A DNA stretch of 55,505 bases from Verrucomicrobiota bacterium (GTDB lineage Bacteria; Verrucomicrobiota; Kiritimatiellia; RFP12; UBA1067), in NCBI GenBank assembly GCA_022704145.1, contig JAKJGY010000007.1, positions 1 to 55,505 on the forward strand. The letters run 5' to 3'. Positions 15,036-53,148 of the stretch are shown piece by piece (the first letter of the stretch is position 1; every line of letters starts with the position of its first letter). The notes beneath the pieces were generated by a model that did no database searches, was not told the origin of the DNA, and saw only the letters and a program-made list of their open reading frames with translations. A program made the translations under genes and the position numbers.

Positions 15036-18000
15036 CTATTGGACGGAGAACAGCGTACCGCGCGCGGACGAGGTCAGCGCGACGTCGTTGCCATCGCCGC
15101 CCAGATACGTGATTTTGAACGTGCGGCCGCTTGCCGTGAAGGCGCCGCCCTCCGGCAAGCCGGCGAAGGCGCCCTCGATCAGGTTCGAACCTTGGTTGTC
15201 AATGATCGTGAGCGGGGCGCTGAGCGCGGCCCCGCCACCGGGCAGCAGCTCGACCTCGAGTGCGGCATCTGCGAGCAGGACGCGCGCGTCGGAGTTTGTG
15301 AGCACGGCCTTGCCGTGGCCGGTCGCCGAAATGCCGATCCGGAGCGTGCCGCCGGCGGCGAGCCGCAGGTGGCGTCCGAGCGTCAGCGCGCCGGGCTGGC
15401 CCGCCGCCGCGCCGGGCGCGAGCGTGCCGCCCTCGACATTGACTGTGCGTGCGAGCGTGCCGCTGCCGGCAAGCGTGCCGCCCGCGCGGACTAGCGCCGC
15501 GCTGGCGGACAACGCGCCGTTGACTCGCAGCGTGCCGCCGTCCACGAAGGTGTGGCCGGAATACGTGCAGGCGGAAACGATGACCGCCTCGCCCGCGCCG
15601 CGTTTGTACAGGTTGTTCCGGTTGCTCACGTTCTTGGTGGACGTCATCACGGCGTTCGTCAGCGCCGCCTCGACTGTGCCCGACTCCAATGTGAAACTGT
15701 ACGCACCGAGTGCGCCGCCGCCGACGCTGTCGGTGACCGTACCGGAGGCCAGCGTGAAGTTGCCGAGGGCTGACGCGAAGCCCGCGATGTCCAGCACGCC
15801 CGTGCCGGTCACGCTGACGGGCGAGACACTGCGGTTGGAGGCGTTGCCCGCGCTATTCATGGGGCCGAGCGCGGCGGCGTGGCCGAACTTCAGCGTGCCG
15901 TCCGAGACGGTCACAGGGCCTGCCAGGGTGTTGTTTCCGGAGAGTAGCAGCGTGCCTGCGCCGGTCTTGTTCAGCGCGCCGTAGCCGGAGACGACGCCGG
16001 AGACCTCCAGCGTGCCGTCGTCGGTCTGGAAGGTGCCGCCGTTGGCGTTTAGCGTCACGGTCTTCGTGGTCGTGAAGCCTGCGGTGGTCTGGAGCGTACC
16101 GCCGTTGAACGACAGGTTGCCGGTGCCCAGGCACCCGTTGGCCTGGACGGCCACCTTTCCGCCAAGCAGGTAGGTCATCGTGGTGTGGTTGTTGTTCGCG
16201 TTGGTCAGGACCAGCGTGCCCGAACCGGCCTTCTGCACGAAGCCGCCGCTCAGCCGGGAGCCGATCTTCAGGACGCCTTCGCCGTGGTGGTGGACGCAAA
16301 GGCCGCCGGAATAGACGATACTCTGACCGTTGATCTCATAGTCGTCCGCGCCCAGGAAGAGCAGACCGCCCGCGTTGAGGGACAGGTTGCCGCTGGTCAG
16401 GGTCAGCGATTGCCCGGTGCCGTCGGTCATCAGCTTGAGGGTGCGCATCGAGGCCGTGCCGAGCGTGGCGCTGCCCGTGTGAGCCACGTTCTGATCCGTG
16501 CCGGGCGCGGCGAGCGTGGTGTAGCCGGAATAGGCCGTGATGCCGCCGCCGCTGACGGTCGCCCAATCCGTGCCGCCGACCGTGGCGTAACCCGTCCCGA
16601 GGATACCGCTCGTGTTGCCCGAGGTGGTCGAGGCGACGCCGTCCTCGAAGTCGATCAGGCCGCCGTTGCTTCGGGTGATGGCGCCGAGGGCGATTGTGGA
16701 GGTCCCGCCGTCCGTGCGTCGGATGCGCGTGTGGCCGACATCGAGCGTCGTGCCGCCGCCCGCGCCGAGCGTCTGGCTGAAGCTGCCGCCCTTAAGCTGG
16801 AGGTCGACCCCGCCGAGGACGAGCGCCGTGACCGTGTTGGTGCCGGCGGTGAGGCGGCTCGCGCCTGATGAGGTGTAGTCGAGGATCGCGGCGCCGCCGC
16901 GGAGCGAGGTCGCGCCGAGCAGGTCGCTGGTGCCGGCCAGCGTCAGCGTGCCTGACCCCGATTTGGCAATACCGCCCCAGAGGTTGGGGATACCCGTGAG
17001 GACGCTGGTCGAGGCGAACACCGTATTGCCCGGCCCCAGGACGGTCAGCGTGCGGCTGGTGACGCAGTTCACGGTGCCCGCGAAGGTCAGCGTGCCGGAA
17101 GCCTGGTTGACCAGCGTCGCGCCACCGCCGAGGGTGAACGAGCCCCCCAGCGTCAGGTCGTTTGTGCCGGTGAAGCCGAGCGGCCGCCCGCCGTCGTTGC
17201 CTGCGGAGCCTCCGAGCGAGACGCTGTTACTGAGGATCTGGCCGTTCTCCAGCGCCTTCAGGTAGAAGCCTTGGCCGCTGTTTGTGAAGAGCGCCGACAG
17301 GCCGAACGGCGTGATGGTGGCGCCCGGCCCGCCGGGGCCGCCGACCGTGATGGTGTTGAACCCGCTGCCGGGCTCGACGATGATCTCCGTGCTGCGGCCG
17401 ATACTGGCGGCCTCGCCGAAGAGGTTGGCTCCGGTGAGCGTCAGATTCGCACCGCTGCCGGTGAACACGAACTTGGCGCCCTTGTTGGCCGTGTTGTAGG
17501 AGCTGCCGGCGTTGTACTCCCGGATGTCCGCGCTGATGGTGAGATCGGCGCCCGAGGGGAGCGTGGGGCTCTGGGGATTGTTGTTCGGCACGGTAGAGTC
17601 GCACAGCGAGTAGATGCCGGTGATGGTCATCGGCGCGGTGTTGACGATATTGATGGACGGCGCGGCGTACTGCGTGATCGTGAAGGCGGGCGTGCTGCCG
17701 GAGCCCGTCAGGGTCAGCGCGCCGTCGCCGGACCAGTAGGTCGTTCCGCCGTTGATCTTGACCTTGTTGGCGAGGGTACGGGGGAAATCCTCCACCAGGA
17801 TCGTCCCCGAGTTCAGCGTGAACGTCCCCGTGCCGAGCGCGGCGTCGTCACCGAGGCCGACGGTCGAGGTCGAAAGCGTCGTGCCGCCGCTATGCGTGGC
17901 CGGACCGTTCAGGCGGAAACCGCCCGCGCCGCGCAACGTGAGCGTGTGCGCGCCGGTCGCGCCGACGCCGTTCTGAAGGACGGCCGCGTTGGCGCTGCCG

Positions 18001-18482
18001 TTGGTCCAGGTCTGGCTGCCGGTCAGGGAGGCCGTGACGCGCTGTCCTGCGGCGGTGGAGCCGACGACGAGCGGCCCCGCGCCGGCGAAGACCTCAATGC
18101 CGCCCGTGCCGAGACTGAGCGTGCGGTCCGCGCCGCCGCCGGTCAGCGTGACGCCGCCGCTGGCGGATTCCCGGAGCGAGAGTTTCGAAGCGGCCTGATT
18201 CGCGCCGAGAGCGACCGCCTGCGCGCCGGATACGCCGTCGGCGCTGAAGGTCGCGACATCCGCCGCACCGGGCGCGGCGACCGGGTCAGGCGTAGCGGCC
18301 GACTGGACGGTCGACCAACCCTCCACCGGACTCCAGCTCGTCCCCGTACCGTCCCAAAACAGTTCTACCGCCTGCGCGACACCGAGAACCATGACCGCCA
18401 GTGCACCAGCCAACGGCCCCGTATGAACCCGACGGTGTACGCCGCCTTTCGCCAAACAGTGAATCACCACGCGCTTTGTCAT
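15036..18482 (-). CDS. Secreted autotransporter-associated beta-strand repeat protein
   Basis: 1148 residues; AGGAGGGG stands 7 bases before the ATG. An N-terminal signal region is followed by many beta-strand repeats of the form G-x-G-x-L-x-L-x-G...G-G-T-x-x-x (for example GAGTLLLSGNNTLAGPVTVSD and GSGTLTLAGTSDLLG), spread over most of the length, as in the autotransporter-associated beta-strand repeat family. There is no C-terminal membrane barrel. The protein ends ARGTLFSVQ, a tail also seen in two other secreted proteins here. It is likely a cell-surface or extracellular beta-helix. The lacI gene is upstream on the same strand, 147 bases away. Confidence 0.85.
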   Translation of the reverse strand: MTKRVVIHCLAKGGVHRRVHTGPLAGALAVMVLGVAQAVELFWDGTGTSWSPVEGWSTVQSAATPDPVAAPGAADVATFSADGVSGAQAVALGANQAASKLSLRESASGGVTLTGGGADRTLSLGTGGIEVFAGAGPLVVGSTAAGQRVTASLTGSQTWTNGSANAAVLQNGVGATGAHTLTLRGAGGFRLNGPATHSGGTTLSTSTVGLGDDAALGTGTFTLNSGTILVEDFPRTLANKVKINGGTTYWSGDGALTLTGSGSTPAFTITQYAAPSINIVNTAPMTITGIYSLCDSTVPNNNPQSPTLPSGADLTISADIREYNAGSSYNTANKGAKFVFTGSGANLTLTGANLFGEAASIGRSTEIIVEPGSGFNTITVGGPGGPGATITPFGLSALFTNSGQGFYLKALENGQILSNSVSLGGSAGNDGGRPLGFTGTNDLTLGGSFTLGGGATLVNQASGTLTFAGTVNCVTSRTLTVLGPGNTVFASTSVLTGIPNLWGGIAKSGSGTLTLAGTSDLLGATSLRGGAAILDYTSSGASRLTAGTNTVTALVLGGVDLQLKGGSFSQTLGAGGGTTLDVGHTRIRRTDGGTSTIALGAITRSNGGLIDFEDGVASTTSGNTSGILGTGYATVGGTDWATVSGGGITAYSGYTTLAAPGTDQNVAHTGSATLGTASMRTLKLMTDGTGQSLTLTSGNLSLNAGGLLFLGADDYEINGQSIVYSGGLCVHHHGEGVLKIGSRLSGGFVQKAGSGTLVLTNANNNHTTMTYLLGGKVAVQANGCLGTGNLSFNGGTLQTTAGFTTTKTVTLNANGGTFQTDDGTLEVSGVVSGYGALNKTGAGTLLLSGNNTLAGPVTVSDGTLKFGHAAALGPMNSAGNASNRSVSPVSVTGTGVLDIAGFASALGNFTLASGTVTDSVGGGALGAYSFTLESGTVEAALTNAVMTSTKNVSNRNNLYKRGAGEAVIVSACTYSGHTFVDGGTLRVNGALSASAALVRAGGTLAGSGTLARTVNVEGGTLAPGAAAGQPGALTLGRHLRLAAGGTLRIGISATGHGKAVLTNSDARVLLADAALEVELLPGGGAALSAPLTIIDNQGSNLIEGAFAGLPEGGAFTASGRTFKITYLGGDGNDVALTSSARGTLFSVQ

Positions 18483-31270: not shown

Positions 31271-33364
31271 ATGAAACGGACACGCATGACAGCACGGTTC
31301 ATTCTGGGCGCCCTGTTGCTGGGCACCGGCCTCGCCGGCAAGGCGGGAGCGGCGGAGGCGCTCTTCGGCGCTTCCGACGATAATCTACTGCTTAACGACC
31401 AGATCAGTTGGTCGCGCCACAATTGGGGCGTCTTCCCGCAGCTCGCGGTCGGCCTGAACGCCGCCAACCAGCCCTACCGCAGCCTGCTGCGCTTTGACCT
31501 CTCCGGCCTCGGAGCCGAGACCTCGATCACCTCGGCCACGCTCACCCTTGTGACGGACCGGCTCGACAAGCTCCAGCAGGCGAACGGCAACTTCGACCTT
31601 CGGCTCTTCCTTCTGGCCGATTCAAACCAGGGATGGGTTCAGGGTACGAATAACGGAAACACCGCCACCGCCGGAGAGCCGTGCTGGCGCTACCGGCAGT
31701 TCGACACCGCCGGCTGGACCGGCGGGCCGGGCATCGGCAACAGCACTGCCTCGGCCGGCGTCGCGGCCCTGCTGGGCACGGTGCAGGTCGACGTCACCAA
31801 CACGGTCCTCGGACAGGTCTTCACCTTCACCATCGATTCGCCCGAGGGCATCAACGCCCTCACCAACTGGGCCGCGGGCGGCGACAACGCGGGCTTCCTG
31901 CTGGCGACAGACGAGGCTTCTGGCGGCCAGAACGCCATCTACTTCGGCTCGAAGGAAAACACCAACGCCGCGCGCCGGCCCAAGCTCACGGTCCGCACCA
32001 CGACCGGCGACATCGACGTCGGCGCGTCGGACGACACGATCATCTGGAACGGCTCGTTCATCTATTACAGCGCCTACAACTGGGGCCAGCACAACCTGCT
32101 CTGGGCCGGCCTGAACGGCGTCAACTGGCCCTACCGCAGCCTGCTGCGCTTCGATCTCTCGTCCCTGCGCGCGCGCTACACCGCGCTCGAATCCGCCACC
32201 CTGACGCTCACCGTGCGCAACGTCAGCAAGATCTCTGTCGCACGCGGCAACTTCGATCTCAAACTCTTCATGCTGGACGACGCCAACGCCGCCTGGACCG
32301 AGGGCACGAAGAATTCCGCCGTGGCCGGTACGGGCGACTCGTGCTGGGAACATCTCGCCTTTGACACAGTCGGCTGGGCTGGCGGTAAGGGCATCGGAGC
32401 CAACTCGGCCTCGGCGGGCGTCAGCAACCTGCTGGCTTCAGTCACCGTCGACGTCGCGACGGTGACCAACGGCCAGAAGATCGTCTTCACCCTTGACTCG
32501 CCCGAGGCGCTGGCCGCGCTCGAGGCCTGGGCGCGCGGCCGCACAAACGCGGGGCTGCTGCTCGTTTCGGACGAGGCCTCGAACGGCCAGAACGCCCTCG
32601 GTTTCGCCTCGGCCGAACACGCAACCGCCGCCGACCGGCCCGCGCTGGCCGTGACCTACACTGCCGACGAGACCGCCTTCGTCGCCAGCGAGGACAATTT
32701 CATGTATAGCCAATCTAGCTATAGCGATTATAACTGGGGCAATTGGAGCACTCGCCAACTCGCCATCGGGCTGAACAGCGCGACACTCACTTACCGCACG
32801 CTGATGCGGTTTGATTTATCTTCCCTCGACCGGGCGCACAAGCAGGTCAAGTGGGCAACGCTGACGTTGACCCAGGCGGCCAACACGAAGATCGTACCGG
32901 CGAACGGCGCGACTTTCGAGACGCGTCTGCACCTGCTCTCAGGTGCCAACGCGGGCTGGATCGAAGGCACCAAGAGCGCTGCCACTGCCGATACCGGCGA
33001 GAGCTGCTGGAACTGGCAGCGGTACAATACCGTGACCTGGACCGGCGGCGCGGGCATCGGCATCAGCACGAACTCGGCCGGCATAGCGGCGACGCTGGCC
33101 AAGGTGCTTATCAACACGACAACCATCAACGTCGGCACCCAAATCGTGTTCCACATCGAGACCCCGGAAGGCCTCACCGCCCTGGAGCGCTGGGCGCGGG
33201 GGGGGGCTAACGAGGGGTTCCTGCTGACCACCGACGAGGCGTCGTCCGGCCAGAACGCGCTCCTGGTCGGGTCAAGCGAACACGGCACTGCCGCCTACCG
33301 CCCGACCCTGCGCGTGGTGCTCGAACCCAAAATCCCGCAAGGCACATTGATCCGGGTGTTATGA
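31271..33364 (+). CDS. Secreted protein with three DNRLRE-type (CBM96-like) domains
   Basis: 697 residues from the ATG at 31271 with AGGAGG upstream. Signal peptide MKRTRMTARFILGALLLGTG. Three tandem domains of about 210 residues (about 30-240, 245-455, 465-685) share the pattern NWG...GLN...YRSLLRFDLSSL...A.LTL..., ending in WARGGxNxGFLLxTDEASxGQNA. The pattern matches DNRLRE/CBM96-type surface adhesion domains. It has no enzyme domain. The C-terminus is QGTLIRVL, a tail shared with two other secreted proteins in the window. Probably cell-surface polysaccharide binding. Confidence 0.85.
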   Translation: MKRTRMTARFILGALLLGTGLAGKAGAAEALFGASDDNLLLNDQISWSRHNWGVFPQLAVGLNAANQPYRSLLRFDLSGLGAETSITSATLTLVTDRLDKLQQANGNFDLRLFLLADSNQGWVQGTNNGNTATAGEPCWRYRQFDTAGWTGGPGIGNSTASAGVAALLGTVQVDVTNTVLGQVFTFTIDSPEGINALTNWAAGGDNAGFLLATDEASGGQNAIYFGSKENTNAARRPKLTVRTTTGDIDVGASDDTIIWNGSFIYYSAYNWGQHNLLWAGLNGVNWPYRSLLRFDLSSLRARYTALESATLTLTVRNVSKISVARGNFDLKLFMLDDANAAWTEGTKNSAVAGTGDSCWEHLAFDTVGWAGGKGIGANSASAGVSNLLASVTVDVATVTNGQKIVFTLDSPEALAALEAWARGRTNAGLLLVSDEASNGQNALGFASAEHATAADRPALAVTYTADETAFVASEDNFMYSQSSYSDYNWGNWSTRQLAIGLNSATLTYRTLMRFDLSSLDRAHKQVKWATLTLTQAANTKIVPANGATFETRLHLLSGANAGWIEGTKSAATADTGESCWNWQRYNTVTWTGGAGIGISTNSAGIAATLAKVLINTTTINVGTQIVFHIETPEGLTALERWARGGANEGFLLTTDEASSGQNALLVGSSEHGTAAYRPTLRVVLEPKIPQGTLIRVL

Positions 33365-50904: not shown

Positions 50905-53148
50905 ATGACAGGGTCTCGCGCCTGGCTCACCGCCCTCACCCTCGGCCTCGCCTGGTCCGCACACGCCGGCACACGTATCCCGCTGGGCGATACCGCGGCC
51001 TCCGCCTCGACCACCTATCCCAACCGCGACCCGAAGTACGCGGTCAACGGCGCCGGGCTGAGCGGCGACCAGCACTCGAACGCGGGCGACTACGCCACCT
51101 GGATGACCCAGTCCAGCGGGGCGATCTCGGGCGCCTGGTTCCGCGTCGACCTCGGACAGGTCTATCCGCTCGACTCGTTCAAGCTCTGGAACTTCAACTT
51201 CTGGCACGCCACCGTCGCGACCACCAACCGCGGCATCCAGCGCGCCGAGGTCTACCTGTCGAGCGCCTCCTCCAACCCCGGCTCTGATTTCTCCAACACC
51301 GCCGTCTGGACCCGCGTCCTGCCGTCCGTCACCTTCGCCAAGGCGCCGGGCCAGTCGACCTACACCGGCGAGCCGCATGTCAGCCTCGCCGGCCACTCGG
51401 GCCGCTGGCTGGCCCTGCGCGTCCTCGCCAACTTCGGGGGTTCAGGCGCAGACACCGTCGGCCTCAGCGAGCTGCAGGTCTTCGCGAACAGCACGCCCAT
51501 CGTCAACGCCCTCTCCGCGTCTGTCACCAGCGAGACCCAGGCCGTCCTCGCCGGTGCGCTCGCCTACACCGGCGGGGCCGACACCCACGTCTACGCCCAC
51601 TGGGGCACGACCGACGGCGGCACCGTCTCCTCGGCCTGGAGCCAGGTCTCCGCCTTAGGCGTGACCCCCCTCGGCGACATCAGCGCCCCAGTCTCGGTCG
51701 CCCCTGAAACCGCCTATACCTTCCGCTTCCGCGCCATCAACAGCGACGGGACAAGCTGGTCCCAGCCTCTCACTTTCATCACCGCGCCGGTCACGGTCGA
51801 GATGCCCGCCACCGTACTGGAAGGCGCGGGCACGCTCACCGTCACCCTGCGCCGGCCGCAGGCCCTCACCAACAGCGCCCTCACCGTCCGCTACACCACC
51901 GGAGGCACCGCCCTCCCCGGCACCCATTACGCGCCGCTCTCCGGCGTCGCCACCTTTCCCGCCGGAGCCGAAACCGTCCCGCTCGCCGTCACCCTGCTCG
52001 ACAATGTCAGCCGCGAGGAGGACGAGCGCACGCTCACGGTCAGCCTGACCTCCGACGCCTGCCTCGTCACAGAGCAGAGCGCCGCGACCACCACGATCCT
52101 CGATGACGACACCCTACTGGACACGACCCGCTGGAACCGCCACATGACGGTCACCCTCGGCGGCTATACCGGCGCGTCCGCCCTCACCCAGTTCCCAGTG
52201 GCCCTGCGCCTCAGCGAACAGCTCCCCGGCTTCCGCTACGCGGATTTCAGCTCGCCCGCGGACGGCGCCGACCTGCGCGTCACCGACACCGCGACAGGCC
52301 AGACCCTCGCTCACGAGATCGAACTCTGGAACCCGTCGGGAACCTCCGTGGTCTGGGTGTCGGTGGCCACGCTCTCCGGAACAGCCACCGAGCTGACCCT
52401 GCACTGGAAGAACCCCGCCGCCAGCATGCCCGGCTACACCACGAGCGGCAGCGCCTGGGACTACGGGTTCAGCGGCGTCTGGCACCTGGACGCCACCGCC
52501 GCCGCTGACAGCACCCGCGAGGGCAACCACGGCACCGCGTACGGCAACGTGACCGCTATGCCCGGCCTCCTCGGCCAGGCCCTGGCCTTCAACGGCAGCA
52601 ACTATGTGCAGGTGCCCCACCACACCTCGCTCGGCGCCGACGTCGCCACCAACCTCACACTCTCGACCTGGTTCCGGCCCTCAGTCACCCTCCAGCGCAC
52701 CAACGACACCATCCGGCTGATCGAAAAGGGCGACGGCTATTTCTTCATCCAGGGGTACAGCAGCCAAGGCGGCCTGGTCTTCCTCTTCAAGCAGAACGAC
52801 ACCAACCTCACCTCGATCGGCAACGGCGCGGACATCCCCTCCAACGAATGGCACCACGCCTGCGCCACGTATAACGGCGCCACGATGCGCCTGTTCCTCG
52901 ATGGGACGCAGGTCGCCTCCACCAGCCGCACCGGCCCGATCGACGACGACCAGCTTCCCTTGCGTATCGGCTCGGACGACAGCGGCAAGTACTTCAAAGG
53001 CCTCCTGGACGAGACGCGCATCGAACGCACCGCACGCAGCGCCGACTGGGTCAAGGCCTGTTACGACAGTCAGACGGACGGCTCGACATTCGCAACCTAC
53101 GGGGCCGTCTACCGGACGCTCCGAGGGTCGCTGATCGCCATCTTCTGA
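50905..53148 (+). CDS. Secreted F5/8-type C, Calx-beta-like, DUF2341 and LamG multidomain protein
   Basis: 747 residues from the ATG at 50905 with AAGGAGG 7 bases upstream. Signal peptide ends near WSAHAG. Order: discoidin/F5-8-type C domain (about 22-195: NAVNGAG-like AVNGAGLSGDQHSN, WFRVDLGQVYPLDSFKLWN); a fibronectin-like part; a Calx-beta-like region (VEMPATVLEGAGTLTVTLRR); DUF2341 (RWNRHMTVTLGGYTGASALTQFPVALRL); and LamG (SGVWHLDATAAADSTREGNH, WHHACATYNGATMRLFLDG). The protein ends RGSLIAIF, a tail shared with two other secreted proteins here. Likely carbohydrate binding at the surface. A -35 (TTGATC) and -10 (CATAGT) spaced 17 bases lie upstream near 50830-50860. Confidence 0.88.
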   Translation: MTGSRAWLTALTLGLAWSAHAGTRIPLGDTAASASTTYPNRDPKYAVNGAGLSGDQHSNAGDYATWMTQSSGAISGAWFRVDLGQVYPLDSFKLWNFNFWHATVATTNRGIQRAEVYLSSASSNPGSDFSNTAVWTRVLPSVTFAKAPGQSTYTGEPHVSLAGHSGRWLALRVLANFGGSGADTVGLSELQVFANSTPIVNALSASVTSETQAVLAGALAYTGGADTHVYAHWGTTDGGTVSSAWSQVSALGVTPLGDISAPVSVAPETAYTFRFRAINSDGTSWSQPLTFITAPVTVEMPATVLEGAGTLTVTLRRPQALTNSALTVRYTTGGTALPGTHYAPLSGVATFPAGAETVPLAVTLLDNVSREEDERTLTVSLTSDACLVTEQSAATTTILDDDTLLDTTRWNRHMTVTLGGYTGASALTQFPVALRLSEQLPGFRYADFSSPADGADLRVTDTATGQTLAHEIELWNPSGTSVVWVSVATLSGTATELTLHWKNPAASMPGYTTSGSAWDYGFSGVWHLDATAAADSTREGNHGTAYGNVTAMPGLLGQALAFNGSNYVQVPHHTSLGADVATNLTLSTWFRPSVTLQRTNDTIRLIEKGDGYFFIQGYSSQGGLVFLFKQNDTNLTSIGNGADIPSNEWHHACATYNGATMRLFLDGTQVASTSRTGPIDDDQLPLRIGSDDSGKYFKGLLDETRIERTARSADWVKACYDSQTDGSTFATYGAVYRTLRGSLIAIF

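Follow-up and report, generated by a model that had tools for sequence, protein, structure and literature searches.

A shared C-terminal tail in three proteins of the window

The window, that is, the whole stretch of DNA analysed here (55,505 nucleotides), is one contig of a metagenome-assembled genome (MAG) of a Verrucomicrobiota bacterium, which comprises 4.57 Mb and is 88% complete. Three of its genes encode proteins whose last residues resemble one another. The gene at 15036-18482 lies on the minus strand (the plus strand holds no open reading frame there, a point on which the earlier note is corrected) and encodes a protein with autotransporter-associated beta-strand repeats (PATR), which begins with a predicted signal peptide (approximately 18369-18482) and ends RGTLFSVQ (15036-15062 with the stop codon). 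On the plus strand, a protein with three DNRLRE/CBM96 domains (31271-33364; signal peptide at approximately 31271-31351) ends QGTLIRVL (33338-33364 with the stop), and a protein combining F5/8C-like, Calx-beta, DUF2341-like and LamG regions (50905-53148; signal peptide at approximately 50905-50967) ends RGSLIAIF (53122-53148 with the stop), a slightly divergent copy with Ser in place of Thr and a final Phe. The three tails thus stand at the C-termini as the earlier note had described them, on proteins with unrelated domains, and all three carriers have a plausible N-terminal signal peptide. Also in agreement with that note, the tail is missing from the window's GH16, sulfatase and BNR/LamG proteins.

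Abundance of the tail in the genome

Genes were called with a codon-usage script on 1.12 Mb of the MAG, consisting of stretches around genome-wide pattern matches and a number of arbitrary contigs. Among the 669 proteins with a C-terminus in this gene call, 59 end in G[TS]phi-phi-x-phi-x, compared to 0.28 C-terminal copies expected if the motif were as dense there as in the interior of these proteins. With the tighter pattern GT[LM][IL]x[VLI]x, 42 of 47 occurrences are located at the very C-terminus, and a loose DNA pattern of tail plus stop codon is found in 78 places of the MAG versus 28 for a reversed-pattern control. As 56 of the 59 tails lie outside the window and played no part in defining the motif, what had been noticed in three proteins is real and far larger than claimed, extending to at least 59 proteins of the MAG. 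Since nearly all genome-wide matches were fetched for the gene call, this number should be close to the total for G[TS]phi-phi-x-phi-x; however, variants with other residues at the third position also occur in this genome, such as SRGTSILIH (L023:7679-9112) and PGTRILVQ (L077:538-3450), and the true number of tail proteins is therefore probably higher. A further 75 tail proteins were collected from 11 related genomes, giving a pool of 134 sequences.

The consensus of the pooled tails is G-T-[L>M,I,V]-[I>L]-x-[V>I,L]-[R>Q>K], in which Gly is invariant and Thr is present in 131 of 134 sequences. The last residue is R, Q or K in 104 and F, W or Y in 7 of the 134, and position -9, two residues before the Gly, is mostly Pro or Ala. 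All four codons are in use for both the Gly and the Thr, and the three stop codons follow the tails at similar counts (TAA 47, TAG 44, TGA 43). This variation at synonymous positions and in the stop codons shows that the tail is conserved as protein and not as DNA, and a conserved DNA element was ruled out. The hydrophobic pattern of the tail is that of a beta strand. None of the Pfam and NCBIfam models run on the C-termini of tail proteins covers it. AlphaFold models built from three and seven sequences were weak (mean pLDDT 59 and 50, with values below 50 in the tail) and fail to show the tail packed in a fold; in that of the DNRLRE protein, the tail lies outside the confident fold.

Carriers and their export

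Tail proteins are long and diverse. By BLAST, at least 21 mutually dissimilar groups can be distinguished among their C-terminal 150 residues, and the tail is often preceded by a Pro/Ala-rich linker. PATR repeats were detected in 24 of 44 scanned tail proteins, the other domains being LamG, F5/8C, PA14, CBM96, malectin, PKD and Ig. The earlier description of the carriers as non-enzymatic is mostly right; a single GDSL lipase and a single subtilase with the tail show, however, that enzymes too can have it. Within single proteins, the tail is tied to the terminus and not to the domain. In the DNRLRE protein at 31271-33364, copies 1 and 2 are 47% identical to copy 3 and run into ordinary linkers, and only copy 3 is followed by IPQGTLIRVL; in two proteins of a related genome (G299), the tail likewise follows only the last LamG copy. 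Tail genes have a close upstream neighbour on the same strand less often than other genes (14% vs 32%).

The earlier note had staked its reading on the tail being commoner in exported than in cytoplasmic proteins, and this was borne out by a home-made signal-peptide score: among tail proteins of the MAG with a complete start, 41 of 47 have a predicted signal peptide, compared to 244 of 560 background proteins, which are mostly neighbours of tail genes rather than a random proteome (P=3e-9). In the 11 other genomes, the corresponding numbers are 55 of 68 and 183 of 410 (P=2e-8). The few tail proteins that lack a recognizable signal peptide mostly have broken or missed starts, and several obvious signal peptides were missed by the score. 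At the sequence level, the tail can therefore be described as a modular C-terminal tag of seven residues that occurs throughout the genome on predicted exported proteins.

Distribution among bacteria

Across 388 genomes of the phylum, enrichment of the tail is confined to the class of the window. Among 146 genomes of this class, nine are enriched at P<0.01, with pattern versus control counts of, for example, 31 vs 1 (G000), 34 vs 0 (G098), 15 vs 0 (G132), 13 vs 1 (G020), 10 vs 2 (G002) and 6 vs 0 (G122), and the rest remain near the control level (135 vs 111). Within the family of the window itself, the tail is strong in most genera and absent from all eight genomes of one genus (g4). When a strict, GC-rich version of the pattern was used to scan 84,980 species genomes, the bearers were Kiritimatiellae MAGs and MAGs labelled Verrucomicrobia or Lentisphaerae. 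The tail is restricted to one class, which the names of the bearers indicate to be the Kiritimatiellae, and is patchy within it.

Exchange with PEP-CTERM

The PEP-CTERM/exosortase system (PF07589 and PF09721; Haft et al. 2006, PMC1569441) resembles the tail in several respects: a short C-terminal homology on many unrelated signal-peptide proteins of one genome, a patchy distribution, mostly single-gene transcription units, and homologous clients. Unlike PEP-CTERM, which spans about 24 residues, the tail comprises only seven and has no PEP motif, no transmembrane helix and no basic cluster; PF07589 is not among the matches listed for tail C-termini. The two signals also differ in distribution. 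Thirteen tail-bearing genomes have 0-6 PEP-CTERM matches each, compared to 16-33 in tail-less genomes of family f2 and 10-14 in those of f8. Several of the f8 matches sit on open frames of 900-2200 residues, and the matches listed for tail-bearing genomes sit on frames of approximately 160-380 residues. The two signals are not strictly alternative, since both are scarce in genus g4.

The strongest functional clue comes from homologues of the PATR protein at 15036-18482. Five f8 proteins share its terminal region (BLAST E down to 5e-13), with the common motif F.GLP.G..F......F.I.Y....D..LT. After this region, the f8 homologues end in VIPEPSTLGLVGMVAAAMLLRRRLR-COOH or similar and the window protein in SSARGTLFSVQ-COOH. 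The homologues with PEP-CTERM at the place of the tail come from two tail-less genomes, an apparent swap in which the same client region carries a different tag.

Exosortase (PF09721) itself was ruled out as the machine of the tail, since its presence does not track the tail: the EpsH search found none in the genome with 59 tails (88% complete) and detected it in 15 others, with or without tails. In five genomes of the class (G039, G093, G113, G132 and G142), exosortase domains lie within open frames of approximately 1350-1400 residues, pointing to a giant fusion variant of the enzyme.

Comparison with other C-terminal systems

LPXTG/sortase, GlyGly-CTERM/rhombosortase and MYXO-CTERM likewise act as C-terminal sorting signals of many unrelated proteins. 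In each of them, the motif must be followed by a hydrophobic helix and basic residues, both of which are missing from the tail. To our knowledge, it would be the shortest C-terminal sorting signal, and it does without the usual membrane helix; no description of such a tail was found in the PMC literature.

In shape, the nearest known system is the type IX secretion system (T9SS), in whose C-terminal signals the last residues are critical (PMC11285876). Each such signal is a domain that folds and spans 70-100 residues (PMC11285876), or 40-51 in the shortest cases reported (PMC11969387), whereas the tail stands alone. The type B C-terminal domain (CTD; PF13585, TIGR04131) comes closest, as its last strand can be nearly identical to the tail and its clients are often giant and adhesin-like. 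One such protein from Chitinophagales (L162:5653-7917; CHU_C E=1.5e-17) ends RSGTLILIR, a tail-like last strand that reflects either convergence or a common recognition principle. T9SS CTD models are not among the families listed for the 59 tail C-termini, and this same protein, used as a control, matches PF13585 and TIGR04131. SprA was found in none of the tail genomes (two Bacteroidota controls were positive at E 1e-150 and 1e-221), and no PorV above the cut-off was found in the class, again with positive controls. A canonical T9SS was therefore ruled out as the machine of the tail. PorU-like C25 peptidases are present in tail genomes; they score below the PorU cut-off and are not specific to the tail.

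Interpretation

The earlier note had proposed, from three proteins, that the tail is a sorting tag. Considering the link with export, the unrelated carrier domains, the position after the last domain copy and the PEP-CTERM swap, we infer that this is a strong reading, and it is highly probable that the tail serves as a C-terminal protein sorting signal. The best explanation overall, which we regard as fairly probable, would be a signal for surface export or surface retention that is read in the cell envelope. The predicted signal peptides suggest that a tail protein would be exported by Sec, after which its free C-terminal strand would mark it for an outer-membrane step leading to the surface or holding it there. 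The clients would belong to the class of large surface proteins, rich in beta structure, for which relatives use PEP-CTERM. As a best guess, offered tentatively, the tail may act by beta-strand addition, its hydrophobic T-L-I-x-V strand pairing with an edge strand of a receptor or shuttle barrel in the outer membrane, by analogy with the part that the last strand plays in T9SS CTDs and in the BAM beta-signal. We give about an even chance to a more specific proposal, according to which an undescribed, T9SS-independent envelope pathway of Kiritimatiellae would read this helix-free seven-residue strand, carry or fix dozens of giant surface proteins outside and take the place of PEP-CTERM/exosortase.

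The co-occurring transpeptidase or secretion system that the earlier note had suggested looking for did not emerge: none tracking it was found, and the neighbourhoods of tail genes have nothing in common, with only sulfatases, oxidoreductases, regulators and similar genes recurring. This outcome is what would be expected if the ordinary outer-membrane assembly machinery (BAM/TAM) bound the tail as a stand-alone beta-signal without any dedicated system, because BAM is universal in diderms. Against this explanation, BAM is universal and the tail is not. The G-T-L-I-x-V spacing at the C-terminus does fit the published core of the beta-signal, polar-x-G-x-x-phi-x-phi (PMC10945584), but the tail has one extra last residue that is mostly basic or Gln and seldom aromatic, and mostly carries Pro or Ala at -9, where a polar residue is expected. 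In addition, no beta-barrel models are listed for the C-terminal 150 residues of tail proteins, and this explanation appears unlikely. Alternatively, the protein could be cut at the tail and anchored by a transpeptidase, soluble or in the outer membrane, that works without a T9SS translocon and is perhaps a C25 peptidase of the PorU-like kind. This candidate looked promising in a chosen set of genomes, where 11 of 13 tail-bearing and 3 of 18 tail-less members have C25 peptidases. The source MAG itself encodes one on contig C410 (L108:1643-4354, minus strand), approximately 4 kb from a tail gene, which matches the PorU model NF033707 over residues 177-763 (E=1e-29, below the cut-off), and no SprA was found in that genome. 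Over the class as a whole, however, C25 is present in 79 of 146 genomes and its association with the tail is weak (5/6, P=0.2, or 8/9, P=0.04), the most PorU-like C25 protein tested comes from a tail-less genome, and two genomes with tails (G132 and G353) gave no C25 match. The candidate was therefore set aside, and the idea is quite unlikely.

Explanations in which the tail is not a targeting signal fare less well. Most carriers are beta-rich and the tail resembles a beta strand, so that it could be a structural element, a capping strand that closes beta-rich domains. Against this, the folds that precede the tail are unrelated to one another, and Pro-rich linkers can precede it as well; it invariably stands at the extreme C-terminus, internal domain copies are not followed by it, most relatives lack it, and it lies outside the confident fold of the weak DNRLRE model; a purely structural role is accordingly improbable. 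The idea of a degradation or quality-control tag draws on the fact that short hydrophobic C-terminal tails are classical ligands of PDZ-type proteases. Such ligands usually end in a hydrophobic residue, whereas the tail mostly ends in R, Q or K, and the fact that a sorting signal stands in its place in homologues speaks for targeting, which makes this the remotest of the alternatives. A surface-directed sorting signal thus remains the preferred reading.

C-terminal signals have previously led to new envelope machines, namely from PEP-CTERM to exosortase, from GlyGly-CTERM to rhombosortase and from CTDs to the T9SS. Within a class that has received little study, the present tail marks 59 large predicted surface proteins of a single genome, and these last seven residues provide a precise handle in the search for a receptor. 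It also lets annotators predict surface proteins of Kiritimatiellae polysaccharide degraders, and it raises the testable question of which component at the outer membrane can read nothing more than a C-terminal strand.

A related signature was observed near the C-termini of six large exported proteins of this genome that lack the tail (L057:2565-5306, L062:1008-3167, L089:121-4425, L089:4597-15003, L106:2576-8092 and L108:1643-4354). They end in [RFWSG]xF[FYM][RK][VL], as in AASRFFRVNVSLD, which is probably the end of an Ig-like domain and possibly a second C-terminal class.
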